DNA from: Massilia sp. CF038
GTDB lineage: Bacteria; Pseudomonadota; Gammaproteobacteria; Burkholderiales; Burkholderiaceae_D
Length of the DNA: 64,000 nt
NCBI RefSeq assembly: GCF_900129765.1
Contig: NZ_FQWU01000001.1
Coordinates: forward strand, 1,612,001 to 1,676,000
Direction: 5' to 3'
Within the stretch, counting starts at the first letter, position 1. The number at the start of each line of letters is the position of its first letter. Of this stretch, positions 1,687 to 52,042 are shown in pieces. Under the pieces are notes generated by a model. That model did not search any database and had not been told where the DNA came from. It worked only from the letters and a program-made list of their open reading frames with translations. The position numbers and the translations under genes are program-made.

Positions 1687-1702
1687 TTGGGAGCGTTTCC
1701 AA
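1687..1702 (+). promoter_or_regulatory. LacI-family operator upstream of the TonB receptor
   Basis: TTGGGAGCGTTTCCAA is an imperfect 16-bp palindrome with a central CG, typical of LacI/GalR operators. Closely related sequences lie at 8485-8500 and 12575-12590, in front of the sugar-binding protein and the GH1 glucosidase. The likely ligand is the LacI-family protein encoded at 11526. Binding is inferred from shared sequence and position. Confidence 0.72.
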
Positions 1703-1843: not shown

Positions 1844-4504
1844 ATGTTGCACCCGAATACCAAGCGAACACTTATGAGTCTGGCCGTGGCCAGCGTCTGC
1901 GGACTGATTTCCATGTCCGCGCACGCCCAGGCGACAAGTCCGACCCCGCCAGCGGAAGGGCAGGCGGCCGACAAGGACTTCATCCCTGAAGTCAAGGTTA
2001 CGGCCACCCGCTACTCGACCTCGCTGTTGAAGACGCCGATTGCAGTCAGCGCCTTCAGCCAGGACAATCTGTCGCGCCTGGGTGTAACCAGCGCCAAAGA
2101 CCTGGCCAATGAAATCCCGAACGTGAACATCCAGCAGACGGGCGACTCCGCCGTGCAGATCACGATCCGCGGCATCACCTCGTCCAACACCACCGAAATT
2201 GGCGACCCTGCGGTCGGCTTCCACATCGACGGCTTGTATTCGCCACGTCCACAAGGTGCGCAAGCGCTGATGTTCGACGTTGAACAGGTTGAGGTGCTGC
2301 GCGGCCCGCAAGGTACGCTGTTTGGCCGTAACTCCACCGGCGGTAGCGTGAACGTGATTTCGGCTAAGCCGGACTTCAGCGGCAACTACGGCAAGGCGGA
2401 GCTGGACATTGGCAATTACAACAAGCGCCAGCTTAATCTGATTCAGAACATCACCGTCAATGAAAGCCTGGCCCTGCGGGCAGCGGTCACCGCGGTCAAG
2501 CGCGACGGTTACGCCAATCAGATGCAGGACAAGCGCGAGGCCAACGATCCGGCCCGTGGCTGGATCCCGGACGGCATTCCCGATGTCGACCAGCGCTGGA
2601 ACGTGCCAGTCTCGAAAAAAGACTTCTACACCAATCAGGACTCGTACGCAGCGCGTCTGGCCGCGAAGCTGAAGGTTAATCCTGACCTGACCCTGAACGC
2701 CGCTTTCGAAATCTTCCAGGACAATAGCGCCGGCGGCACCAGTTTTGCCGATTGCGACCAGCGTGCTGGCACCCGCTACGCCTGCACCGGTGGCCAGTGG
2801 GATCTGCTGGTGAACGTGCCGGGCCGCACGGACATGACCATCAAGTCGCTGCGTGGTGGCGCCAGCTGGGCCGTCAACAAGAACACCAGCCTCGATTACA
2901 ACTTCATGGTGGCTGACCAGCGCCGCTTCCAGATCTACGACGCCGACAAGGGCCTGACTGCCGCGTTGCCGTTCCAGATCAGCGCTGACTATCCAAACCG
3001 TCCGGACGCCAATAACTGGGGTACCTGGCCGCTGGACGACCGTTATCAGGCCACCTGGGATTCGAAGTACGTCTCGACCGTGCAGGAACTGCAGCTCAAG
3101 CAGCAGTACGACACCATCCAATACGTCGCCGGCCTGTTCTGGATGCACGAGAAAAACCAGATCAACTATGAGGTGGTTGACTTCTTCCGCAAGCCGCACG
3201 CACTGGCATCGGGCGCGTTCTACGCGCAGCCGAACCGTCAGGTCGATGCCAAGGCGATCTTCGCCCAGGCTGACTGGAAATTCCAGCCTACCTGGACGGC
3301 CACTGCCGGCGCACGCTTCTCGCGTGACAGCAAGACCGACAAGGATGGTTTGAATCTGGGTGGCTGGGCCGGCTCCAAGGCCTTCTATAACAACACCTAC
3401 GATCCGGGCACGCCAAACACGCCGGGCTACCGTATCCCGCAGGGCAATGACCTCGGGCCGACCGTGGGCGGCAGCGCGCAAGCGTATGCGCTGTACGGCA
3501 TCCCTTCGCCAAACGACCATTCCGATTCGTGGAAAAAAGTCACCTGGCGCCTTGGTCTGCAAAAGCAGGTCACCGACAACCAGATGGCCTACACCGCGCT
3601 GTCGACCGGCTACAAGGCCGGCGGCTTCGGCGACAAGGTGGATAGCTGCGGCGGTAACATCTGCCTGGACGGCAAACCAGGTACCCCGACCTTCCTGCCT
3701 TACAAGCCAGAGCTGGTCACCAATCTGGAATTTGGCTACAAGGGTAAATTCCTGGACAACCGTCTGAGCCTGTCGGCCGTCGCCTTCATGATGCGCTACA
3801 AGGACCAGCAGCTGACCGGTACCTACTTCGTCACCAAGTTCCAGCCACCGGGCAATGTACCGTGCGCCAGCGACCAGCCGAAGTGCGACGTGTATGAAAC
3901 CTGGCGCACCATCAACGTCGGTAACACCCGCATCTCGGGCCTGGAAGTCGAGTGGGACTACAAGCCATGGAAGGGCGGCAAAGTGGGCGGTTCGTTCTCG
4001 AACCTGAACACCTCGATCCGCGACTATGGTTCGTTCAGCGACGACTACCTGTGCGACGAGCGCGTCGAGTTCAACCAGACCCGCTGCCCAACGCCATACG
4101 CTGGTGCAGGTCCGGACAACGGCAAGCGTCTGTATGACGTGACGGGCAACCGTCTGCCGAACGCGCCAAAGTACACCATGGCGCTGAACTTCTCGCAGGC
4201 GTTCAACCTGGAGAATGGCTACAAGATCACGCCTTACATCAAGGGTAACTGGCGCGACAAAGTGTACTTCGACGTGCGCAATGACGAATTTGCCCACATC
4301 GGCCGCTTCCAGAAGGCGTATGCCACCTTCGATGCATCGCTGCGACTTGACTCGCCGGACAATCGCTTCCATGCTGAGGCTTATGTCCGTAACCTGACCG
4401 ACGAACGCGCCAAGAACTGGGGCGGCAGTGGTCTGGGCGGGCAGATGATCGCCAGCTTCATCGAGCCGCGCATGTACGGTGTACGGATGGGTATCAGCTA
4501 CTAA
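1844..4504 (+). CDS. TonB-dependent outer-membrane receptor
   Basis: 886-residue outer-membrane receptor. A signal peptide ends near AHAQ (residue 29), a TonB-box-like EVKVTA follows at 49-54, then a plug domain with LRGPQGTLFGRNSTGGSVNV, and a long beta-barrel ending in an aromatic residue (GVRMGISY). The start at 1844 has AAGGAG upstream. It imports a ligand across the outer membrane using TonB/proton-motive force. Linked LacI, GH1 and sugar-binding genes, and a shared operator, suggest a glycoside or oligosaccharide ligand rather than a siderophore. That is inference; receptors of this class also carry iron chelates and cobalamin. Receptor-halogenase pairs are familiar from carbohydrate-uptake loci of Xanthomonas and Caulobacter. 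Confidence 0.9.
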   Translation: MLHPNTKRTLMSLAVASVCGLISMSAHAQATSPTPPAEGQAADKDFIPEVKVTATRYSTSLLKTPIAVSAFSQDNLSRLGVTSAKDLANEIPNVNIQQTGDSAVQITIRGITSSNTTEIGDPAVGFHIDGLYSPRPQGAQALMFDVEQVEVLRGPQGTLFGRNSTGGSVNVISAKPDFSGNYGKAELDIGNYNKRQLNLIQNITVNESLALRAAVTAVKRDGYANQMQDKREANDPARGWIPDGIPDVDQRWNVPVSKKDFYTNQDSYAARLAAKLKVNPDLTLNAAFEIFQDNSAGGTSFADCDQRAGTRYACTGGQWDLLVNVPGRTDMTIKSLRGGASWAVNKNTSLDYNFMVADQRRFQIYDADKGLTAALPFQISADYPNRPDANNWGTWPLDDRYQATWDSKYVSTVQELQLKQQYDTIQYVAGLFWMHEKNQINYEVVDFFRKPHALASGAFYAQPNRQVDAKAIFAQADWKFQPTWTATAGARFSRDSKTDKDGLNLGGWAGSKAFYNNTYDPGTPNTPGYRIPQGNDLGPTVGGSAQAYALYGIPSPNDHSDSWKKVTWRLGLQKQVTDNQMAYTALSTGYKAGGFGDKVDSCGGNICLDGKPGTPTFLPYKPELVTNLEFGYKGKFLDNRLSLSAVAFMMRYKDQQLTGTYFVTKFQPPGNVPCASDQPKCDVYETWRTINVGNTRISGLEVEWDYKPWKGGKVGGSFSNLNTSIRDYGSFSDDYLCDERVEFNQTRCPTPYAGAGPDNGKRLYDVTGNRLPNAPKYTMALNFSQAFNLENGYKITPYIKGNWRDKVYFDVRNDEFAHIGRFQKAYATFDASLRLDSPDNRFHAEAYVRNLTDERAKNWGGSGLGGQMIASFIEPRMYGVRMGISY

Positions 4505-4603: not shown

Positions 4604-6124
4604 ATGGAAGATAAAAAGGTCAGAAAGATTGTCATCGTCGGCGGCGGTACGGCCGGATGGATGGCGGCATCGGCGTTGTCGCAGCTGCTGCCGGCGGGTC
4701 ACAGTTACCAGCTGATCGAATCGGATCAGATCTCGACCATCGGGGTAGGGGAGGCGACCATCCCCAGCATCCGCAACTTCAATCTTCACCTTGGCATCGA
4801 CGAGAACGACTTCATTCGCGCCACCCAGGGCACCTTCAAGCTGGGCATCGAGTTCGTCAACTGGGGCAAAAAAGGCGACAACTATATTCACGGCTTTGGC
4901 TCGGTGGGGCGCGATCAGCCCACCGCCAATTTCTACCAGTACTGGCTCAAGATGAACCAGATGGGGCATGCACCAACCATGGAGCCGTTCTCGATCAACA
5001 CCGTGGCGGCGCGCATGGGCCGCTTCTCGCGCGGCCGGCCGGACCTGCCCAATTCGCCGTTGTCCGACCTGTCATACGCATTTCACTTCGACGCGGGGCT
5101 GTACGCGCGTTACCTGCGCACCTACAGCGAAGCGCGTGGCGTGCAGCGCATCGAGGGCAAGATCGTTGGCACCGTGCTGCGTGAAGGCGACGGCTTCATC
5201 GAAGCGGTCGTGATGGAAAACGGGCAGCGCATCGAGGCTGACTTCTTCATCGACTGCTCCGGCCTGGTCGGGCTGCTGATCGAACAGGCGCTGCACACTG
5301 GTTACGAGGACTGGAGCCACTGGCTCCCGTGCGACCGCGCCATCGCCGTGCCTTGCGAGACGGCCGGCAGCATGCAGGCGCTGACCCGGTCCACCGCCCA
5401 TTCGGCTGGCTGGCAGTGGCGCATTCCGCTGCAGCACCGCACAGGTAACGGACACGTGTTCTCCAGCCGCTTCATGGAACCGGCCGAGGCCGAGAAGATC
5501 CTGATGAATAACCTGGAAGGCAAACCGCTGGCTGAGCCCCGCCTGCTCAAGTTCGTCACGGGTAAGCGCAAGCAGACGTGGAACAAGAACTGCGTGGCCA
5601 TCGGCCTGTCGGGCGGCTTCATGGAGCCGCTGGAGTCGACCAGCATTCATATGGTGAAGACGGCCCTGATGCGCCTGATTACCTTCTTCCCGGACTGCGG
5701 TTTCGACCAGGTCGACATCGATACCTTTAACCGCCTGTGCGACAACGAGTACGCCCAGATCCGCGACTTCCTGATTTGCCACTACAAGGTCAACGCACGC
5801 GACGACTCGGACTTCTGGCGCTACGTGCAGGAGATGGAAGTGCCGGCCGCGCTGCAGCGCAAACTCGACCTGTTTGCCAGCCATGGGCGCATCCTGCGCG
5901 AGAACGAGGAGCTGTTCCCCGAAGACAGCTGGCTGCAGGTCATGCACGGCCAGGGTATGCGCCCGCGTTCCTACAATCCCGTGGTGGACCAGCGCTCGCC
6001 GGAAGAAATTGCGGACTTCCTGCACAACACAGCGGCCGTGATCCGCAAGTGCGTGGATGCGATGCCGGGACACCTGGATTTCATTCGGGCCAATTGTCAG
6101 GCGCCGGTGAAGAAGGCGGCTTGA
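4604..6124 (+). CDS. Tryptophan-halogenase-family flavoprotein 1
   Basis: 506 residues. The N-terminal FAD fold has GGGTAGW at residues 13-19 and GVGEATIP at 47-54. The catalytic lysine of the PrnA/RebH family is conserved (TFKLGIEF, Lys79), as are the family motif WQWRIP (270-275) and the MEPLEST segment (Glu341 region; PrnA Glu346 equivalent). Known members use FADH2, O2 and halide to make lysine-bound hypohalite that attacks tryptophan or other aromatics. Members beside TonB receptors have mostly unknown substrates. It follows the receptor by 99 bp on the same strand. Clearly paralogous to the product at 9779. No reductase partner is nearby. Family certain, substrate unknown. Confidence 0.88.
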   Translation: MEDKKVRKIVIVGGGTAGWMAASALSQLLPAGHSYQLIESDQISTIGVGEATIPSIRNFNLHLGIDENDFIRATQGTFKLGIEFVNWGKKGDNYIHGFGSVGRDQPTANFYQYWLKMNQMGHAPTMEPFSINTVAARMGRFSRGRPDLPNSPLSDLSYAFHFDAGLYARYLRTYSEARGVQRIEGKIVGTVLREGDGFIEAVVMENGQRIEADFFIDCSGLVGLLIEQALHTGYEDWSHWLPCDRAIAVPCETAGSMQALTRSTAHSAGWQWRIPLQHRTGNGHVFSSRFMEPAEAEKILMNNLEGKPLAEPRLLKFVTGKRKQTWNKNCVAIGLSGGFMEPLESTSIHMVKTALMRLITFFPDCGFDQVDIDTFNRLCDNEYAQIRDFLICHYKVNARDDSDFWRYVQEMEVPAALQRKLDLFASHGRILRENEELFPEDSWLQVMHGQGMRPRSYNPVVDQRSPEEIADFLHNTAAVIRKCVDAMPGHLDFIRANCQAPVKKAA

Positions 6125-6155
6125 ACAAAGGTAGCAGGAAGCAAGCGCACTTAGC

Positions 6156-6249
6156 ACCAACATCGCCCTCGCGGAGGCGGGGGGCCATGCCACGTAACCG
6201 AAGTCAGTGAAGTGGTATGGGCCCCCGCCTGCGCGAGGGCGATGTTGGT
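6156..6249. repeat. REP-like imperfect palindrome
   Basis: Long inverted repeat whose outer arms read ACCAACATCGCCCTCGC and its complement, with GC-rich inner arms (GGCGGGGGGCCATGCCAC against GTGGTATGGGCCCCCGCC) and a short loop. Related copies occur at 13998, 33354, 47431 and 51957, with fragments at 6803, 11341 and 34095. It lies 32 bp after the halogenase stop and could form a very strong RNA hairpin. Confidence 0.85.
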
Positions 6250-6312
6250 TTTCGGCTTGCACAGGCGATCAAGTCAACTTTACAACGTGCGCTCGTGTTG
6301 CGATACTGCGCC

Positions 6313-6702
6313 ATGAACGCAACATTCTGTCTCATCTTTATTTTCGCGCTGATTGCGATCTTGGTCGACCGGTTTTACGTGCGGGCGAAGAGCGCAAGAG
6401 CGTTTCGTGCGCGCTTCGACCGCCAGTTTTTGGAAGCAAAACTGGAACTGAGCGACCCACTGTATCAATTCGATGGCGCCAGTGCGACGGTGATCGCTAC
6501 CGTGGAAGAAATGGGAAAACGGGGCAACGCTGGCTTCCTTCTATCAATTGAGCGCTATGCGCGTAACCAGCACGGCGAATATTTCCTGGTGCGCTCAGAC
6601 GAACCGGGCGCGCCTTTTGTCAAGCACGTCTCGCACCGCATTGCGAAAGTGATTTTGGCGGAGAAGTATATCGAATCCAACACCGCGAGCTCGCGCACGT
6701 AG
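6313..6702 (+). CDS. Hypothetical protein, one N-terminal membrane segment
   Basis: 129 residues. Residues 2-16 form one hydrophobic helix (NATFCLIFIFALIAILV) followed by Arg/Lys, so the protein is probably inner-membrane anchored with a cytoplasmic or periplasmic domain of about 105 residues. No family was recognised. The start at 6313 is chosen because the longer frame to 6217 would translate one arm of the REP-like repeat. The gene is bracketed by an intact repeat (6156) and a degenerate one (6803), and does not share the strand context of an obvious operon. Confidence 0.55.
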   Translation: MNATFCLIFIFALIAILVDRFYVRAKSARAFRARFDRQFLEAKLELSDPLYQFDGASATVIATVEEMGKRGNAGFLLSIERYARNQHGEYFLVRSDEPGAPFVKHVSHRIAKVILAEKYIESNTASSRT

Positions 6703-6802
6703 GTGGTAGCTGCGTCACTCCACACGCACGATGGCCCATTCAAGTCCAAATACTCGATAAAGGACGGCCGTTGTGATTAGTTCAATCAAGCGCGCCGACC
6801 AA

Positions 6803-6916
6803 CAACATGGCCCTCGGGCTCGGCGCCCCCCTTGGCGGGGGCCCATTCCACTTCTTCGACTTCGGTTACGTGGCATAGGGAGCTCGCATGCTAGCCGCCT
6901 GCGCGAGCGCGATGTC
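6803..6916. repeat. Degenerate REP-like repeat
   Basis: Scrambled version of the dispersed palindrome: pieces such as GGCGGGGGCCCATTCCAC, ACTTCGGTTACGTGGCAT and GCCTGCGCGAGCGCGATGT match arms or loop of the copy at 6156, but the inverted symmetry is broken. It occupies most of the 236-bp gap between the small membrane protein and the sirtuin. Confidence 0.55.
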
Positions 6917-6938
6917 GTATGTCGATTCCATCGATTTT

Positions 6939-7658
6939 TTAGGCTTGGGATTGAGCCTGGTTTAACCAGGTATTGACGAGCGCCGGCACCACCTCTGTGG
7001 CTTTGCCCTGCATGAACGTGTAACCGAAAGGGACTTTATCAAAGTCGAGACAGTTCAGCACCTTTTCTGCGCGGCCGCGCGCGGCTTTGACGAGCCCCGC
7101 CGCCGGATACACTGATAGCGATGTACCCACCACTAATACTTTTGCGGCGCTTGCCACGTGGGCACGCGCTTCTTCCATGAATTGGGTTGGCTCACCAAAC
7201 CAGACAATGTCGGGACGCAGCTGGGTGCCGTGCTCGCACAGCTGACCCAGTGTGATCGGCGCGGCATCGATCCGGTAGCGCAAGCGCGCATCCGATGTAC
7301 CCCGGGCGTATATGAGTTCTCCGTGCACGTGAAGGATATTGGTCGAACCCGCACGCTCATGCAAATCATCGACGTTCTGCGTAACGACCACAACTTCGTA
7401 CGCTTGTTCAAGCGCAGCAATGGCGCGATGGGCAGCATTTGGCGCCACCGCGGCCGCCTTGGCCCGGCGTTCGTTGTAGAAGGCGAGAACGGCTTCGGGA
7501 CGCGCCTGCCAACCCTCGGGTGACGCCACTTCATGCCATGCATACTGATTCCATAGCCCGTTCGAGTCGCGGAAAGTCGGCAGGCCGCTCTCGGCGCTGA
7601 GACCTGATCCGGACAGTACGACGATTTTGTTGGGTTGGACTTCAGGCTTCATCTTCAC
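6939..7658 (-). CDS. cobB: Sirtuin (NAD-dependent deacylase) lacking zinc cysteines
   Basis: 239 residues, normal for class III sirtuins. Visible: NAD-binding SGSGLSAESGLPTFR (16-30), TQNVDDLHERAG (93-104), catalytic His112 in HVHGEL, VWFGE, and GTSLSVYPAAG. FYNERR (60-65) places Tyr61 and Arg64 like the Tyr-x-x-Arg pair that lets E. coli CobB and SIRT5 remove succinyl or malonyl groups. Between HVHGEL and VWFGE only one Cys (141) is present, so the usual four-cysteine zinc site is gone. Substrates are acyl-lysines; targets here are unknown. It lies on the minus strand within the receptor/halogenase locus, downstream of the DUF6445 gene. Confidence 0.85.
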   Translation of the reverse strand: MKMKPEVQPNKIVVLSGSGLSAESGLPTFRDSNGLWNQYAWHEVASPEGWQARPEAVLAFYNERRAKAAAVAPNAAHRAIAALEQAYEVVVVTQNVDDLHERAGSTNILHVHGELIYARGTSDARLRYRIDAAPITLGQLCEHGTQLRPDIVWFGEPTQFMEEARAHVASAAKVLVVGTSLSVYPAAGLVKAARGRAEKVLNCLDFDKVPFGYTFMQGKATEVVPALVNTWLNQAQSQA

Positions 7659-7742
7659 GTTCTTTTGGCACTGTCACCATTGTCCGGGGGAGGGGTGCGG
7701 CGGATGGACATGGAAGGCTCAAATAATACTGCATCCGATGAA

Positions 7743-8429
7743 TCAGCTTGCAGTCTTGCGATACCTGAAAAACCCATTTACCGTCAAACGTCCGGTTGCC
7801 GGGTCGGCGGTCAGAAGATCGGGGCGGCTGATCTGGGCAGCATGGAACAAGGTGCCATCGTAGAAAATCGCGCGGTTGAATTTCGCTGGCACCGTGCACA
7901 CCTGTTCGAACCATGGAGTCGATTTGCTCAGGTATGCCGCATCCACAGGTTCGCTGCCATCGGCTGCGCGCTGCAGATAATGCGCCGTTTCCTGCGCCGA
8001 CCTGGTCGGGGCATAAAAGCTGGTACCACCCATGTCCGGCGCTTCGAACAGATAGGCCACACTGGCAGCCACGCCTTCGTTGTCGGGCATGGTGACGGCA
8101 TCGCGGTGGCACAGACGCTGCAAAGGACTGAGCTGCGCCGCGGGCAAGGTGGCCATGGCCAGCCGCGCGGATGTATGCAGCGTGCGTCTGCCGCCCAGGG
8201 CCCGCCGCACATGCAGCGAGAAAAACGTCTCCAAAGCGCCGGCAAACGCCGGTCCCAGATCCAGCTCGGGGCCCGGATAGTAATTGTCGGGATCAATGGC
8301 GAAGCGGGAGCGTTCGGCGGCGGCCCATTCGCGCAGATTGTGCGGATCGAGCAGAAAATCGTCGACCACCGCACAGGCTTGCCCGGGGATGATCGGCACA
8401 TAGCGAATTGTGGGGCGGGGGTTGAACAT
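7743..8429 (-). CDS. DUF6445 family protein, probable 2-oxoglutarate/Fe-type fold
   Basis: 228 residues from the start at 8429, which has GGAG 6 bases upstream; an ATG at 8459 would overlap the -35 box of the divergent promoter. The layout CHRDA (about residue 117) then NRAIFYDGTLFHAAQI and the closing TGRLTVNGFFRYR resembles DUF6445 proteins, where H-x-D and a distal His suggest an iron/2-oxoglutarate oxygenase-like site. Such genes recur beside TonB receptors and tryptophan-halogenase homologues in Caulobacter- and Xanthomonas-type loci. It is transcribed divergently from the sugar-binding protein, with one LacI-type operator between. Enzymatic activity is not established. Confidence 0.7.
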   Translation of the reverse strand: MFNPRPTIRYVPIIPGQACAVVDDFLLDPHNLREWAAAERSRFAIDPDNYYPGPELDLGPAFAGALETFFSLHVRRALGGRRTLHTSARLAMATLPAAQLSPLQRLCHRDAVTMPDNEGVAASVAYLFEAPDMGGTSFYAPTRSAQETAHYLQRAADGSEPVDAAYLSKSTPWFEQVCTVPAKFNRAIFYDGTLFHAAQISRPDLLTADPATGRLTVNGFFRYRKTAS

Positions 8430-8442
8430 TTGCAGCTCCGCG

Positions 8443-8472
8443 TTGACACTCAAAATCATTGAATGATATAGT
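8443..8472 (+). promoter_or_regulatory. Promoter of the sugar-binding protein/halogenase 2 operon
   Basis: TTGACA (8443-8448), 18-bp spacer, TATAGT (8467-8472). The spacing and the operator position 12 bp after the -10 box copy the arrangement at the receptor promoter (1647-1702). Confidence 0.7.
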
Positions 8473-8484
8473 CAAATGACTACT

Positions 8485-8500
8485 TTGGAAACCCTTCCAA
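8485..8500 (+). promoter_or_regulatory. LacI-family operator upstream of the sugar-binding protein
   Basis: TTGGAAACCCTTCCAA has 6-bp perfect inverted arms (TTGGAA/TTCCAA). It matches the receptor and glucosidase operators in both arms but has CC instead of CG at the centre. It lies between the divergent DUF6445 and sugar-binding-protein genes and could control both. Confidence 0.68.
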
Positions 8501-8543
8501 TATCAAGCGGGCCAAGATCCGCTCCGCTCACTCAGGAGACACG

Positions 8544-9782
8544 ATGTACAAAGCACGACAACTGGCGGTCGCGGCGATGCTCGCCTGTGCCGCCGCCAGC
8601 GCGCAGGCAGCCGACCCGAAACCCGAAGTCATTCACTGGTGGACCTCCAACAGCGAGGCCGCCGCCGTACGCACCATCGCCGATGCTTACCGCAAGCAGG
8701 GCGGGGTGTGGAACGATACCGCCATTGCCGGCGCCGACCAGGCACGCGCGGTGGCGATCAACCGCATCGTTGGCGGCAATCCGCCCATGGCTGCGCAGTT
8801 CAATACCACCAAACAGTTTACTGATCTGATCGAGCAGGGCATGCTCAATAATGTGGACGACGTGGCGCTCAAGGAAGGGTGGGACAAATTCCTGCCCGAG
8901 CCTATTCTGAACGTTATCCGCGTCAAGGGCCACTACTACGCGGTGCCGGTCAATATTCATATGCAGTCGTGGATCTGGTACTCCAAGGCGGCCTTCAAAA
9001 AGGCAGGCATTGCCAAGGAGCCGGCCTCCATCGAAGAACTCTTTGCCGCCTTCGACAAACTTAAGGCAGCGGGCATTGTGCCGCTGGCGCACGGTGGCCA
9101 GTCGTGGCAGGAGAACATCCTGTTCCTGGCCATGCTGGCGCACGTGGGCGGGACCGATCTGTATCTGAAGGTGCTGCGCGACCGCGATCAGGCTGCAATC
9201 AATTCGGAGGCATTCAAGAAGGTGCTGCTGACCTTCAAACGTCTGCAGACCTATGTCGATGCCGGTTCCCCGGGCCGCAACTGGAACGACGCCACCGCCA
9301 TGGTCATCAGCGGCAAGGCTGGCGTGCAAGTGATGGGCGACTGGGCCAAGGGCGAATTCGCGGCTGCCAAAATGACGGCAGGTAAAGAGTTTGGCTGCAT
9401 CGCCGGATTTAACGCCAAGTCGCCTTATCTGATCCAAGGCGATGCCTTTGTCTTCCCCAAGACGACCAATGCGCAGCAGATCAAGTACCAGAAGCTGTTG
9501 GCCAGCACCATTGTCGCGCCATCGACCCAGGTGGCCTTTAACAAGCTGAAAGGGTCGATCCCGATTCGCGGCGATGTGGACGCGTCGAGCATGGACGAAT
9601 GCGCGCGCATCGGTCTCAATATCATGAAGGACCGCACTCGCCATGTGGGCATCGGCGAGGTGTATCTCACGCCGGACCAGAATGGCGCCATGCAGGACGT
9701 GCTGACCGCGTTCTGGAATACCAAAATGCCGGCTGAGAAGGCGCAAAAAGGCATTGCGGCCGCACTCAGGAACGAACAGTGA
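8544..9782 (+). CDS. ABC sugar-binding periplasmic protein, orphan
   Basis: 412 residues. Signal peptide MYKARQLAVAAMLACAAASAQA, then a mature protein beginning KPEVIHWWTSNSEAAAV with the family-1 solute-binding fold of sugar ABC systems (similar in layout to glucose/mannose-binding GtsA). NPPMAAQFNTTKQF and WIWYSKAAFKKAG are typical segments. It should bind a sugar in the periplasm. No permease or ATPase gene is in the window, so it must borrow one or act otherwise. Its stop overlaps the GTG start of halogenase 2 by 4 bases, implying coupled translation. Controlled by the operator at 8485. Confidence 0.87.
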   Translation: MYKARQLAVAAMLACAAASAQAADPKPEVIHWWTSNSEAAAVRTIADAYRKQGGVWNDTAIAGADQARAVAINRIVGGNPPMAAQFNTTKQFTDLIEQGMLNNVDDVALKEGWDKFLPEPILNVIRVKGHYYAVPVNIHMQSWIWYSKAAFKKAGIAKEPASIEELFAAFDKLKAAGIVPLAHGGQSWQENILFLAMLAHVGGTDLYLKVLRDRDQAAINSEAFKKVLLTFKRLQTYVDAGSPGRNWNDATAMVISGKAGVQVMGDWAKGEFAAAKMTAGKEFGCIAGFNAKSPYLIQGDAFVFPKTTNAQQIKYQKLLASTIVAPSTQVAFNKLKGSIPIRGDVDASSMDECARIGLNIMKDRTRHVGIGEVYLTPDQNGAMQDVLTAFWNTKMPAEKAQKGIAAALRNEQ

Positions 9783-11293
9783 ACGGCCAGCTGGAAGACA
9801 TCGTCATCGTCGGCGGCGGTACTGCCGGCTGGATGACGGCGGCGGCTTTGTCGCGCCTGTTGCCGGCCGGGCATCGGATTCGCCTGGTCGAGTCGGACGC
9901 GATTTCCACCATCGGTGTAGGCGAGGCCACCATTCCCAGCATCCGCGCCTTCAACCATTTGCTTGGGCTGGACGAGAATGAGTTCATGCGCCAGACCCAG
10001 GCCACCTTCAAACTCGGGATCGAGTTTCGCAACTGGGGTGGGGAAGGGGACAATTACATCCATGGCTTCGGGCAGATCGGGCGCGATCAGGTGCTGGCCA
10101 AGTTTTACCAGTACTGGCTCAAGCTGTATCAACTGGGCGAGGCGGATGACCTGGGCGCCTATTCAATCAATACGCTGGCGCCGCGTCACGGCAAATTCAT
10201 GCGGCCCCCGGACGACATGCCCAATTCGCCGCTGGCTGACATTGCGTATGCCTTCCATTTCGACGCCGGGCTGTATGCCAAATTCCTGCGTGGCGTGAGC
10301 GAGGCGCAGGGCGTCAAGCGCATTGAAGGGCGCATCGTCAACACCGAACTGCGCGGCGGCGATGGCTTTATCGAAGCAGTGGTCATGGAAAATGGCGAGA
10401 AGATCAAGGGCGACCTGTTCATTGACTGCTCTGGGCTGAGCGGTCTGCTGATCGAAAAGACGCTGCAGACCGGCTTCGAGGACTGGAGCGCGCTGCTGCC
10501 GGCCGACAGCGCTATTGCCGTGCCTTGCGTGTCAGACGGTTCGCTCGCGCCCTACACGCGTTCGACGGCGCACCGCAGCGGCTGGCAATGGCGCATCCCG
10601 CTGCAGCACCGTACCGGTAATGGCCATGTCTTTTCCAGTAAGTTCATGAGTGCCGACGAAGCGCAGGCGATCCTGATGGCCAATCTGGAAGGGGAGGCAC
10701 TTGCCGAACCGCGCCTGATTCGCTTCACCACGGGCAAGCGCAAGAAGGCGTGGAACCGCAACTGCGTGGCCATCGGACTGGCTGGCGGCTTCATGGAGCC
10801 GCTGGAGTCGACCAGTATTCACATGGTGCAGACGGCGATCATGCGCTTGATCGCGCTGTTCCCGGACCGTTCGTTCCGCCAGGCGGACGTGGACATGTTC
10901 AATGCGCAGTCCGATGATGAATACGAGCGTATTCGCGATTTCCTGATCATGCACTATCACGTGAACCGGCGTACCGATTCGCCTTTCTGGACCTACTGCC
11001 GCGACATGGCGGTGCCGGATTCGGTGCGCGAGCGCATTGCGCTGTACCAGGGGCATGGGCGCATCTTCCGCAAGGGCGATGAGCTGTTTGCCGATGCGAG
11101 CTGGTTGCAGATTATGCATGGCCAGGGGCTGCGTGCGCAGAGCTATCATCCACTGGTTGATCAGCGTAGCAAGGACGATATTGCAGCTTTTGTGGGGGCG
11201 GTGCACAAGACCATTGCGGCTTGTGTTGAGGCGATGCCAAGTCATGCGGAGTATGTGGCGGCGATGTGTCCGGCGCCGAAGATGGCGGCTTGA
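9779..11293 (+). CDS. Tryptophan-halogenase-family flavoprotein 2
   Basis: 504 residues, clearly paralogous to the product at 4604 along its whole length. FAD motif GGGTAGW (12-18), GVGEATIP (46-53), catalytic lysine in TFKLGIEF (Lys78), WQWRIP motif, and FMEPLEST are all intact, so it should be an active flavoprotein; the substrate is unknown. The start is GTG at 9779, overlapping the sugar-binding-protein stop (GTGA). Co-translation with a periplasmic sugar-binding protein is unusual for a halogenase, since the halogenase itself has no signal peptide and should be cytoplasmic. A free FAD reductase would be needed in trans. Confidence 0.88.
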   Translation: MNGQLEDIVIVGGGTAGWMTAAALSRLLPAGHRIRLVESDAISTIGVGEATIPSIRAFNHLLGLDENEFMRQTQATFKLGIEFRNWGGEGDNYIHGFGQIGRDQVLAKFYQYWLKLYQLGEADDLGAYSINTLAPRHGKFMRPPDDMPNSPLADIAYAFHFDAGLYAKFLRGVSEAQGVKRIEGRIVNTELRGGDGFIEAVVMENGEKIKGDLFIDCSGLSGLLIEKTLQTGFEDWSALLPADSAIAVPCVSDGSLAPYTRSTAHRSGWQWRIPLQHRTGNGHVFSSKFMSADEAQAILMANLEGEALAEPRLIRFTTGKRKKAWNRNCVAIGLAGGFMEPLESTSIHMVQTAIMRLIALFPDRSFRQADVDMFNAQSDDEYERIRDFLIMHYHVNRRTDSPFWTYCRDMAVPDSVRERIALYQGHGRIFRKGDELFADASWLQIMHGQGLRAQSYHPLVDQRSKDDIAAFVGAVHKTIAACVEAMPSHAEYVAAMCPAPKMAA

Positions 11294-11340: not shown

Positions 11341-11394
11341 CCTTCCGAAGTCGGATAGGTGGTATGGGTCCCCGCCTGCGCGAGGACGGTGTGT
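11341..11394. repeat. Half copy of the REP-like palindrome
   Basis: One arm only: GTGGTATGGGTCCCCGCC followed by TGCGCGAGGAC, plus loop-like CTTCCGAAGTCGG. It lies in the 232-bp gap between halogenase 2 and the LacI gene; apart from this fragment nothing else recognisable was seen there. Confidence 0.65.
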
Positions 11395-11525
11395 GGTTAT
11401 TCTGGGGGTGTCGGCCATGTTAGCGGTAGCATGGGGTGGGGCCCCCGTGCACGGCAGTCTTGCCTACTTGTACAGCCCCCCTTCATTGCAGTATCCTTAG
11501 CCCGTTATTACGGACGAAAGCACGC

Positions 11526-12542
11526 GTGGCAACCCTTAAAGACGTAGCACAGCTGGCCGGTGTCGGCCTTGGAACCGCATCACGCGTCGTCAGCGGGAAG
11601 GGCGCCGTATCGCCGAAGACGCTGGCCCGCGTACGCAAGGCGATCGAGGAACTCGACTTCCAGCCTTCCCACGCGGCCCGTTCCCTCATGTCGGGTAATT
11701 CGCAGATGGTGGGGGTGTACATCCCCTTCCTGAGCGGTACCTTTTATACCCCGATTCTGCAGCTGGTCTATGCCGAGCTGCGTGCGGCTGGCCTGAACAT
11801 GGTGGTCGGTTTTGGCACCGGCAGTGTCGATGAACGCCAGCAGGCTGTGGAGGGCATCGATTTTCTGAATCAGCGCGGCTGCGATGGCGTACTGGTGATG
11901 ACCAACGCGCTCAAGGCCGAGGACATTGCCGCGCTGGGTCCGCGCAAATCGCGCATGGTCCTGCTTAACCACAGCCTGCCCGGCATGGAAGAGCGCTGCT
12001 TCACGGTCGACCATCATCTGGGCGGGCGCATGGCCGCGCGCGCACTGCTCGACAAAAAGCACAAGAAGATCGCCGTCATTACAGGTCCCAATCACGCGCC
12101 CGATAACGTGGAACGCATCGACGGCTTCATGCAGGAATTGCGCGAAGCGGGCATCAACACCGACAAGTTGTGGGTCACCGAAAGTAATTTCGCGCCTGAG
12201 GGTGGCTGGGATTCGGCCAAGGCGCTGCTGGACTCGGGCCATGAATTTACTGCCGTCTTCTGTGCCAACGACGAGATGGCAGTAGGGGCGCTTTCGTACT
12301 TCCAGCAGGCTGGCGTGGACGTGCCGGGCAAGGTATCGGTGCTTGGCTACGACGATACGCACAGCGCCGATTTCACCGCGCCGCGCTTATCCTCAGTGCA
12401 TATGCCCTGGACCGAAATGACGCTCAATGGCTTGAACTGCCTGCTCAATCGCTGCTACGACATGAACCGGCCGTACACCCACGAGTATGCAGTCAGCGTG
12501 ACCGAACGTGCTTCGCTCGCCAAAGCAAAAAAACCGGACTAA
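11526..12542 (+). CDS. LacI-family transcriptional regulator
   Basis: 338 residues. Helix-turn-helix at the N-terminus (MATLKDVAQLAGVGLGTASR, then VVSGKGAVSPKT), hinge helix with PSHAARSLMSGNS, then a periplasmic-binding-protein-like effector domain (VGVYIPFLSGTFYTPIL to GYDDTHSADFTAPRLSSVH). The start is GTG at 11526; upstream in-frame codons would only add an unrelated tail. It should bind a sugar or glycoside and release palindromic operators. Three similar palindromes in this window (1687, 8485, 12575) fit a LacI site and flank the receptor, sugar-binding and glucosidase genes, so this protein is the obvious local repressor. The link is inferred, not shown. Confidence 0.87.
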   Translation: MATLKDVAQLAGVGLGTASRVVSGKGAVSPKTLARVRKAIEELDFQPSHAARSLMSGNSQMVGVYIPFLSGTFYTPILQLVYAELRAAGLNMVVGFGTGSVDERQQAVEGIDFLNQRGCDGVLVMTNALKAEDIAALGPRKSRMVLLNHSLPGMEERCFTVDHHLGGRMAARALLDKKHKKIAVITGPNHAPDNVERIDGFMQELREAGINTDKLWVTESNFAPEGGWDSAKALLDSGHEFTAVFCANDEMAVGALSYFQQAGVDVPGKVSVLGYDDTHSADFTAPRLSSVHMPWTEMTLNGLNCLLNRCYDMNRPYTHEYAVSVTERASLAKAKKPD

Positions 12543-12574: not shown

Positions 12575-12590
12575 GTGGAAGCGATTCCAA
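12575..12590 (+). promoter_or_regulatory. LacI-family operator upstream of the GH1 gene
   Basis: GTGGAAGCGATTCCAA, with perfect arms TGGAA/TTCCA around a central CG. It lies 37 bp before the GH1 start codon. A weak promoter (TTGGCT at 12544, TGTTAA at 12568, 18-bp spacer) would place transcription start close to the operator, as at the other two sites. Confidence 0.7.
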
Positions 12591-12626: not shown

Positions 12627-13988
12627 ATGACGACTCCAAATCCTGAAGTGCACGGTCCCTTGTCCCGCTCCGATTTCGGTGACGAATTCCAATGGGGCTG
12701 CTCGACGTCGGCCTTCCAGATCGAAGGTGGTGCGAGCGAGGGCGGGCGTGTCCCGTCCATCTGGGACACCTTCTGCGAGACCCCAGGCAAGATCCGTGAT
12801 GCCTCCAATGGCAAGGTCGCCTGCGATCATTTCCATCGCTGGCCGGACGATATGGCGCTGGCGCAGTCGCTGGGCCTGAATGCTTACCGCTTCTCGATTT
12901 CGTGGCCGCGCATTTTCAGTGCGCGCGGCGCCGCGCCCAACGAAGAAGGCCTGGCCTTTTATTCGGACATGATCGATGGCATGCTGGCGCGCGGGCTAGT
13001 GCCATGGGTCACGCTGTATCACTGGGATTTGCCGCAGTATCTGCAGGACCAGGGCGGCTGGACCAACCGCGATACGGTGGCGGCCTTCGTTGAATATGCC
13101 GACGTGGTGACCAAGCGCCTGGGCGACCGCGTCAAGAATTGGATTACACACAACGAGCCATGGTGCACGGCCATCCATGGCAATCTCGATGGCATGCATG
13201 CGCCGGGCATCAAGAGCGTGCCAACCGCGCTGCAGGTATGCCATAACGTGCTGCTCTCGCACGGTCTGGCGGTGCCGGTCATTCGCGCCAATGTGCCCGG
13301 TGCGCGGGTTGGTATCGCGCTGTCGCTGCATCCGGTCGAACCGGCCAGCGATTCCGTGGCCGACCGCGATGCAGTCGTGCGCCACGATGCGTTCCGCAAT
13401 CGCTGGTTCCTCGATGCTTTGTATGGCCGTGGCTATCCGTCCGTGCCGATGACGATGCTGGGTAAGGACGCGCCGCATATCGCGCCGGGCGACATGGAGG
13501 CGATTGCCGTCCGCACCGACTTCCTGGGAGTGAATTACTACTTCCCCGAGGTGGTGAAGCATGATGCCGAAGGCGGCTTCCTGGAGACGACGGTGGTGCT
13601 GCCCGAAGGCCGCCAGCGTACCGATTTTGGCTGGGAGGTGGCGCCGGCTGGTTTGACCGCGCTGCTGGCACGTATCGCGCGCGAGTACGATGCCGGCGAC
13701 TTGTACGTGACCGAGAATGGCTCGTGCTACGACGATCATCCAGATGCAGCAGGCAATGTGGCTGACAGCGCGCGGCGCGATTATCTGGTGCGGCATTTGC
13801 ACGCGGTGCGTGCCGCGCGCGAGCAGGGCGCGCCAGTGAAGGGGTATTTTGCCTGGAGCTTGCTGGATAATTTCGAGTGGTCGGAAGGGTATTTGCGGCG
13901 CTTCGGGATTGCGTATGTGGATTTTGAGACGCAGCGGCGGACGCTCAAGTCGAGCGGGCAGTGGTATAAGGGCTTCCTGCGCGGTTAA
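12627..13988 (+). CDS. GH1 family beta-glucosidase
   Basis: 453 residues, the standard length for GH1. Catalytic acid/base Glu177 in THNEPW and nucleophile Glu363 in VTENG; FQWGCSTSAFQIEGG at the N-terminus and WSLLDNFEWSEGYLRRFG near the C-terminus complete the family signature. It hydrolyses beta-linked glucosides or galactosides with retention. There is no signal peptide, so it acts on imported glycosides in the cytoplasm. The start at 12627 is preferred over a GTG at 12567 because the latter would place the operator and terminator tail inside the gene. Predicted member of the local LacI regulon. Confidence 0.92.
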   Translation: MTTPNPEVHGPLSRSDFGDEFQWGCSTSAFQIEGGASEGGRVPSIWDTFCETPGKIRDASNGKVACDHFHRWPDDMALAQSLGLNAYRFSISWPRIFSARGAAPNEEGLAFYSDMIDGMLARGLVPWVTLYHWDLPQYLQDQGGWTNRDTVAAFVEYADVVTKRLGDRVKNWITHNEPWCTAIHGNLDGMHAPGIKSVPTALQVCHNVLLSHGLAVPVIRANVPGARVGIALSLHPVEPASDSVADRDAVVRHDAFRNRWFLDALYGRGYPSVPMTMLGKDAPHIAPGDMEAIAVRTDFLGVNYYFPEVVKHDAEGGFLETTVVLPEGRQRTDFGWEVAPAGLTALLARIAREYDAGDLYVTENGSCYDDHPDAAGNVADSARRDYLVRHLHAVRAAREQGAPVKGYFAWSLLDNFEWSEGYLRRFGIAYVDFETQRRTLKSSGQWYKGFLRG

Positions 13989-13997
13989 ATCCATCAC

Positions 13998-14091
13998 CAC
14001 ATCGTCCTCGCGGAGGCGGGGACCTATACCACGCATGCGGTAGCGTTAATGCACGCGTGGTATAGGTCCCCGCCTTCGCGAGGACGATGTG
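13998..14091. repeat. REP-like palindrome between glucosidase and catalase genes
   Basis: CACATCGTCCTCGCGGAGGC and its complement form the outer arms, with inner arms GGGGACCTATACCACGC and GCGTGGTATAGGTCCCC around a 19-nt loop. It lies between two convergent genes and could terminate transcription from both sides. Confidence 0.88.
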
Positions 14092-33353: not shown

Positions 33354-33441
33354 CACATCGCCCTCGCGTAGGCGGGGGCCCATACCACGCTTCCGAATCC
33401 GGGAGCGTGGTATGGGCCCCCGCCTACGCGAGGGCGATGTG
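33354..33441. repeat. REP-like palindrome with 38-bp perfect arms
   Basis: Arms 33354-33391 and 33404-33441 are exact reverse complements over 38 bp (outer end CACATCGCCCTCGCG) around a 12-nt loop. It is the best-preserved copy of the dispersed repeat. It ends 7 bp from the hemerythrin stop. Confidence 0.92.
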
Positions 33442-47393: not shown

Positions 47394-47430
47394 GGGAGAA
47401 ATGCTTTCGTTATAAAAAGGCGGAAACGTC

Positions 47431-47532
47431 ATCGTCCTCGCGAAGGCGCAGTCGCATGCGACTGCCCCATGCCACATTTGCTCCATCGCTGAACATGCGT
47501 GGCATAGGTCCCCGCCTCCGCGAGGACGATGT
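47431..47532. repeat. REP-like palindrome with a palindromic insert
   Basis: Outer arms ATCGTCCTCGCGAAGGCG and CGCCTCCGCGAGGACGAT match. In the left arm the usual GGGACC block is replaced by CAGTCGCATGCGACTG (47449-47464), a perfect 16-bp palindrome. It lies upstream of the histidine-phosphatase gene. Confidence 0.8.
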
Positions 47533-51797: not shown

Positions 51798-51976
51798 CCC
51801 ATCGCGAAGGCGGGGCGGGCTACACCGCCAGCTTCCTCATCCGCAGCTGACACATCGCGAAGGCGGGGTGGGCTACACCGCCAGCTTCCTCATCCGCAGC
51901 TGACGCATCGCGAAGGCGGGGCGGGCTACACCGCCAGCTTCCTCATCCGCAGCTAACACATCGCCCTCGCGGAGGC
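51765..51976. repeat. Four tandem copies of a 53-bp unit
   Basis: Units begin with GGCTAC at 51765, 51818, 51871 and 51924, an exact 53-bp period. Each contains the end of nasS including its stop codon (CCGCAGCTGA or a variant) and GCGAAGGCGGGG, a fragment of the REP-like repeat. Only the first copy is coding; the last merges into the intact repeat at 51957. Confidence 0.9.
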
Positions 51977-52042
51977 GGGCCTATGCCACTTGACCGAATT
52001 CAGTATCGTGCTATGGGCCCCCGCCTTCGCGAGGGCGATGTG
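51957..52042. repeat. REP-like palindrome downstream of nasS
   Basis: CACATCGCCCTCGCGGAGGC with its complement as outer arms; inner arms are imperfect (GGGCCTATGCCAC against GTGCTATGGGCCC). It separates nasS from the nitrate operon promoter. Confidence 0.85.

Follow-up and report, generated by a model that had tools for sequence, protein, structure and literature searches.

Why two flavin-dependent halogenase-like proteins should be encoded among genes for sugar uptake and hydrolysis is the question raised by a locus of Massilia sp. CF038. The locus lies in a 64,000-nucleotide stretch of contig NZ_FQWU01000001.1 (positions 1,612,001 to 1,676,000, forward strand; hereafter the window), and we refer to the two proteins as Hal1 and Hal2. 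Sequence comparison strongly favours a joint answer to the first part of the question, namely that the locus belongs to a LacI-type beta-glucan regulon and that both proteins belong to a halogenase branch with Xcc4156, 9luq and BrvH. For the locus as a whole, the explanation towards which we lean, by a small measure, is an uptake-linked halogenase branch that acts within this regulon, perhaps on a component of the uptake machinery, whether peptide or protein. Domains were annotated for 10 proteins of the window, up to position 13988, and the features on which the argument draws are as follows (aa, amino acids; ORF, open reading frame; ABC, ATP-binding cassette; GH, glycoside hydrolase family).

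1688..1701, + strand: predicted LacI-type operator TGGGAGCGTTTCCA, found by pattern match 5' of the TonB receptor gene
1844..4504, + strand: TonB-dependent receptor, 886 aa (Plug 5.6e-18, barrel 1.1e-30)
4604..6124, + strand: Hal1, flavin-dependent halogenase-like, 506 aa (PF04820)
7743..8459, - strand: DUF6445, predicted 2-oxoglutarate/Fe(II) oxygenase (8.5e-63), divergent from the binding-protein gene
8486..8499, + strand: predicted LacI-type operator TGGAAACCCTTCCA, between DUF6445 and the binding protein
8544..9782, + strand: ABC sugar-binding protein, 412 aa (SBP_bac_1, 3.6e-26), with a signal-peptide-like start as judged by eye
9779..11293, + strand: Hal2, flavin-dependent halogenase-like, 504 aa, GTG start (PF04820)
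11526..12542, + strand: LacI-family regulator (LacI 3.2e-15, Peripla_BP_3 2.3e-29); GTG start at 11526 picked by eye in an ORF open from 11436
12576..12589, + strand: predicted LacI-type operator TGGAAGCGATTCCA, 5' of GH1
12627..13988, + strand: GH1 family beta-glucosidase (TIGR03356 592.7 bits, cut-off 478.5); ATG start at 12627 picked by eye in an ORF open from 12567

Operators and the predicted beta-glucan regulon

The LacI-family regulator and three operator-like palindromes add to the features listed in the initial annotation of this DNA, which had named a TonB receptor, a glucosidase and DUF6445 as neighbours of the halogenases; all three are present. We built an operator pattern from the three palindromes, which had been seen by eye, and the count in the window (3 matches against 0.04 expected from shuffling) is partly circular. 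Over 5.66 Mb of the genome, a less circular test than the window count, the pattern matched 15 times, at 13 places, and its reverse never. Ten of the 13 places lie beside GH16, GH5, GH3, GH1, ABC, receptor or binding-protein genes. Those in the window lie beside the receptor and Hal1, DUF6445 and the binding protein with Hal2, and GH1, and a further operator stands beside GH16 at C2:1611890, just left of the window. Elsewhere, operators occur beside GH5 with carbohydrate-binding module (CBM) 6 at C2:1351201 and on C12, beside GH16 with CBM56 on C3 and at C6:527129, before ABC permeases and an ATPase at C10:199549, and, at C10:203495, before GH3, behind which glucokinase and an MFS carrier are encoded. 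Some sites fall just inside called ORFs, the starts of which were perhaps called too early.

CBM56 binds beta-1,3-glucan. From its gene content, the locus appears to be part of a LacI-type beta-glucan regulon rather than an aryl-glucoside locus, and the glucan is probably a beta-1,3-glucan. Loci for laminarin, itself a beta-1,3-glucan, combine as a class GH16, GH5, GH3, GH1, CBM6 or CBM56, a TonB receptor and LacI, as here; they differ from the present set, which is spread over five contigs and includes, among its operator-marked genes, two halogenases and DUF6445. In such a regulon, the glucan would be cleaved by GH16 and GH5 enzymes, oligosaccharides would enter through the TonB receptor and ABC importer, GH1 and GH3 would release glucose, and an inducing sugar would relieve LacI.

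This assignment bears on the substrate that had been proposed for the halogenases, a plant phenolic glycoside or its aglycone. GH1 enzymes can cut aryl glucosides, and a small aromatic entering with the glycan, such as a phenolic aglycone, ferulate or a lignin-linked sugar, might then be halogenated or hydroxylated. The open sites of BrvH and the Xanthomonas campestris enzymes, which accept indoles according to PMC7336383, would suit such a molecule. The regulon, with its GH16, GH5, GH3 and GH1 enzymes and several CBM6 or CBM56 modules, argues against this proposal, as does the finding that none of the 19 proteins of this genome scanned around operators belongs to an aromatic-catabolism family. 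Related halogenases also occur in loci with GH13, GH31, GH97 or GH20 enzymes, and genomes carry up to 16 halogenase genes, a number hard to explain by aglycones. We consider a small-aromatic substrate unlikely.

The same operator pattern is present in Undibacterium-type loci, which encode DUF6445, GH16, a binding protein, two permeases, an ATPase, Hal2, LacI, GH5, GH1, GH3 and an MFS carrier (the gene caller found no LacI in locus L006 and no DUF6445 in L011, and L005 begins inside the operon). In Undibacterium locus L004, the ABC ATPase gene is followed by that of a halogenase with 79% identity to Hal2. Homologues of the window receptor were sought in eight genomes and were present in six. 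In each of the four Undibacterium genomes analysed, a receptor 70-71% identical to that of the window has two operators upstream and is followed by a halogenase that is 77-80% identical to Hal1 and 66-68% to Hal2. The contigs with these pairs match those of the ABC-Hal2 loci in length, and the receptor-Hal1 and ABC-Hal2 stretches lie 0.9 to 18.7 kb apart, if contig coordinates agree. Two genera therefore share an arrangement in which receptor and importer are each accompanied by a halogenase. Because Undibacterium pairs Hal1 with the receptor and Hal2 with the ABC importer, the arrangement probably predates the separation of the ABC genes from the binding protein in the window lineage.

No permease or ATPase gene adjoins the binding protein in the window, as had been pointed out, but the accompanying description of an orphan protein is rejected. 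Its likely partners lie on another contig of the same genome (G000:C10), with permeases 80% and 80% and an ATPase 71% identical to the proteins of the Undibacterium locus. Operator copies precede these ABC genes and the next gene, GH3, and a second LacI gene accompanies them.

Nearer relatives share the pattern in part. It occurs at the same three genes in Massilia sp. H-1 (L013) and at the receptor and GH1 in a congener (L149), and was not found in loci L014, L017 and L074. The Massilia sp. H-1 locus (L013:568-13596) keeps the gene order of the window, with only short, broken ORFs for the receptor, the halogenases and the binding protein, perhaps through sequencing errors, and was left out of the identity figures. 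Locus L074 (G000:C2:1262000-1277000) holds the third halogenase of the genome, a member of a lower-scoring subgroup at G000:C2:1268745-1270148; it adjoins a TonB receptor 30% identical to that of the window, GH1, glucokinase and LacI. L270, a distant receptor homologue, lies beside a GH1 gene and a halogenase gene whose product shares 37% identity with Hal1.

Halogenase sequences, their branch and their linkage to TonB receptors

Hal1 and Hal2 are 64.8% identical and are intact, full-length members of PF04820 (636 and 646 bits for the two halogenases, cut-off 21). Both carry the GxGxxG and WxWxIP motifs, with WQWRIP and GGGTAGWM present in each, and the residues that we take, from PrnA and RebH and in agreement with aligned PDB chains, to be the catalytic lysine (K78 in Hal2) and glutamate (E343 in Hal2). 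The initial annotation was correct in recognizing two halogenases with the lysine, WQWRIP and FAD motifs intact. It had further placed the start of Hal2 inside the stop codon of the binding-protein gene, where we also find it (...CAGTGA and GTGAAC share four bases), and had called the two translationally fused; they are separate ORFs, and a fusion is rejected. The overlap looks like a local, derived state of the window sequence, because the ATPase stop precedes the halogenase start codon in nine ABC-linked loci, six from Undibacterium and three from Oxalobacteraceae metagenome-assembled genomes.

For phylogeny, the halogenase profile returned 174 matches, 172 of them at 200 bits or more, of which the 166 relatives of 400-800 aa were placed in a FastTree tree with five PDB segments, two Trp-type enzymes included; the tree was midpoint rooted and its root is arbitrary. 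The clade that contains Hal1 and Hal2 has 99 leaves (support 0.86) and includes Xcc4156 (X. campestris, PDB 6y1w) and 9luq ('Tryptophan halogenase'); BrvH joins them at 128 leaves (support 0.80). On the other side of the midpoint root, 39 lower-scoring relatives form a 41-leaf group together with LooH (9lmg) and 6ul2 (Tryptophan 6-halogenase). The phylogenetic check proposed with the initial annotation therefore groups Hal1 and Hal2 with Xcc4156, 9luq and BrvH and separates them from both of the Trp-type halogenases included.

The aligned chains give a similar picture. Xcc4156 and 9luq are 47-48% identical to Hal1 and Hal2, keep the catalytic residues and align to Hal2 without the loop insert of RebH type. 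BrvH (PDB 6frl) is 47-49% identical, although it branches outside the 99-leaf clade. LooH and 6ul2 belong to the same family and share the lysine, the glutamate and WxWxIP, but are only 32-40% identical, and the Trp-binding, RebH-type loop insert of 6ul2 is absent from Hal2 in the alignment of Hal2. At the last position of Fx.Px.Sx.G, serine replaces the usual glycine in Hal1, Hal2, 9luq and BrvH, whereas Xcc4156 has asparagine and LooH and 6ul2 retain glycine. PMC7336383 notes that BrvH and the enzymes of X. campestris have serine or asparagine at this position. It also reports open active sites and no activity on free Trp for BrvH and Xcc4156, states that the substrates used in nature by BrvH and by three X. 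campestris enzymes are unknown, and proposes a peptide substrate.

Among the 166 relatives, the catalytic lysine is kept in 165 and the catalytic glutamate in 164, whereas the motif glycine is replaced by serine in 121 and by alanine in 33, and kept in 10. The replacement, together with partner families that resemble oxygenases, could be read as the mark of flavin monooxygenase-like proteins that no longer halogenate and instead oxidise, for example, a sugar-derived or protein group. We find this doubtful in view of the near invariance of lysine and glutamate and of BrvH, which carries the same serine and, as reported in PMC7336383, halogenates indole derivatives in vitro with a preference for bromide.

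The linkage to receptors extends well beyond this locus. We screened 398 genomes, scoring the four best candidates in each, and sampled one halogenase locus per genome, picked by us from the listing, for 56 of the 63 halogenase-positive genomes of the phylum sample; 40 of these genomes each supplied a control region at a distance of 100-500 kb. A TonB receptor occurs within three genes in 44 of 56 loci (adjacent in 32) and in 3 of 40 controls, although the span scanned is wider for a locus with several halogenases than for a control, which favours linkage somewhat. SapC (19 loci), Cupin_8 (14), DUF6445 (6) and LacI (12) recur in the same 56 loci and were each absent from the controls. Halogenases that the gene caller missed in L067, L090, L146 and L151 were kept in the denominators. 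By the same measure, receptors accompany 17 of 20 loci from the bacterial family to which the window belongs, 9 of 13 in the class sample and 25 of 35 among the genome_contigs loci, where the misses are mainly Undibacterium-type loci fetched without the receptor. On the tree, a receptor lies within three genes for 73 of the 97 genes that make up the 99-leaf clade with the PDB segments and for 27 of the 39 relatives grouped with LooH and 6ul2, counts that are not independent, as several genes share a locus.

A second receptor subfamily, TIGR01782, shows the same tendency. In eight chosen genomes, a TIGR01782 receptor lies within 3 kb of 54 and within 7 kb of 62 of 75 halogenase genes, against a chance value for 3 kb of at most 0.009-0.058, depending on the genome. 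Among the 398 genomes, 53 have both halogenase and TIGR01782 receptor, 10 only the halogenase, 25 only the receptor and 310 neither (Fisher p ~3e-36, a value that ignores phylogeny and comes from few scored candidates per genome). The window receptor (1844-4504) is not listed for TIGR01782 (criterion >310 bits) and is assigned to another subfamily; the halogenases are thus paired with at least two receptor subfamilies. Receptor-linked halogenases are common in the family, and the company of halogenase and uptake genes is not the oddity for which it had been taken. The linkage calls the annotation 'tryptophan halogenase' into question and indicates where a target should be sought, namely in the glycan-uptake system rather than among antibiotic genes. 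Among the open-licence papers listed, we found no title or abstract start on linkage of halogenases or SapC to TonB receptors or polysaccharide utilisation; we do not claim that the linkage was previously unpublished.

Antibiotic genes had already been noted as missing from the neighbourhood, and the 10 window proteins scanned contain no such gene and no biosynthetic gene. Production of a diffusible secondary metabolite or signal, with the remaining genes elsewhere, would match the classical role of the family and a weak similarity to CmlS in NCBIfam. That similarity amounts to 42 bits, far short of the cut-off of 900, and with Hal1 and Hal2 standing apart from the two Trp-type enzymes in the tree, we judge this role improbable.

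Several loci in these samples depart from the common pattern. Five loci of family f210 (L123, L124, L126-L128) lack TonB receptor, SapC and Cupin_8 genes in their surroundings and represent a different association. In Rugamonas, a Peptidase_M2 gene (L018:7969-9873; angiotensin-converting-enzyme-like) lies directly beside the halogenase, with GH31, and its cluster, c18, occurs in 6 loci. In L061 (G258:C15:16000-33000), a 247-bit halogenase at G258:C15:23805-25187, perhaps diverged in function, sits between two high-scoring copies. Among unassigned neighbours of halogenases, 7 of the 72 scanned are alpha-amylases, compared with 1 of 72 control genes; the neighbours were drawn as 90 of 194, less 18 that ran off an edge, and the controls as 72 of 278 candidates from which assigned families had not been removed.

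Candidate targets and oxygenase-like partners

As cytoplasmic FADH2-dependent enzymes, Hal1 and Hal2 would form hypohalous acid (HOX) at the flavin, hand it to the conserved lysine and act on an electron-rich aromatic group bound in an open active site. More likely than a free small molecule, the carrier of this group would be a peptide or protein that belongs to the uptake system; we offer such a target as a tentative guess.

The frequent partners Cupin_8 and DUF6445 carry oxygenase motifs of the form HxD...H. In DUF6445, H118xD120...H206...R224 is invariant in 22 of 22 sequences. A structural model of the protein (pLDDT, the predicted local distance difference test score, 88.5) gave 44 Foldseek matches at E<=0.001, mostly to 2-oxoglutarate oxygenases by title (exceptions include 8fnc_14), with modest query TM-scores of 0.28-0.51 in the listed rows, which suggests that DUF6445 may be a 2-oxoglutarate/Fe(II) oxygenase. 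Cupin_8 has H174xD176...H258 in 23 of 23 sequences. The SapC model, built from two sequences, reached a mean pLDDT of 36 and was not usable. We speculate, with still less assurance than for the target, that linked halogenases together with SapC, Cupin_8 and DUF6445 form a modification system that combines halogenation with hydroxylation to tailor glycan-uptake proteins or peptides; in the present regulon, one halogenase would serve the receptor and its paralogue the importer.

A number of observations weigh against this account. A strongly conserved tryptophan was not found in halogenase-linked TIGR01782 receptors, the top Trp column reaching 0.69 in 85 linked and 0.53 in 40 unlinked sequences; in the family of the window receptor (6 linked and 7 unlinked sequences), tryptophan occupies 3 of 103 invariant positions specific to linked members. 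A conserved receptor tryptophan as the halogenation site is unsupported by these columns, a failure that weakens the simplest form of the protein-target idea. Hal2 pairs with the ABC operon, and the receptor therefore cannot be the sole partner. Of the 56 phylum loci, 12 have no TonB receptor up to three genes away, the three halogenases of the genome itself are not near TIGR01782 receptors, and 3 of the 13 operator places, those near a Na+/H+ exchanger, a DUF418 protein and a PKD/di-haem pair, lack an evident beta-glucan gene. Seven homologues of the window receptor (L263-L269; 43-61% identical) have neither halogenase nor operators within 1.5 kb, and congener G094 (L149) has receptor and Hal1, the binding protein followed by LacI, and GH1, with Hal2 missing. 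The last two findings would also fit genes that merely hitch-hike and are unimportant for uptake, an explanation to which we attach very little weight given the phylum-wide linkage, the nearly invariant catalytic residues and the pairing with two different receptor subfamilies.

Other receptor columns do differ with linkage. One further Trp column is enriched in linked TIGR01782 receptors (0.56 against 0.07), but in little over half of them, and Tyr columns differ as well (for example, 0.84 against 0.23 and 0.68 against 0.05), which may reflect receptor phylogeny only. The 40 unlinked receptors were chosen by us as having no halogenase within 7 kb; one, G636:C2:306539, is 8.6 kb from a halogenase.

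Other features of the window

Two further genes sit between Hal1 and DUF6445.

6217-6702, + strand: ORF of 161 aa, no Pfam match
6939-7658, - strand: Sir2-family protein

Imperfect palindromes resembling repetitive extragenic palindromes or bacterial interspersed mosaic elements (REP/BIME), with the core GCGARGRCGATGT, are also frequent, giving 13 matches in the window with one mismatch allowed against 0.59 expected. Such palindromes lie at 6156-6249 and 13998-14091, and copies of the core also occur near 6834-6915, 11345-11401, 33355-33440, 34098, 47429-47532 and 51958-52041.

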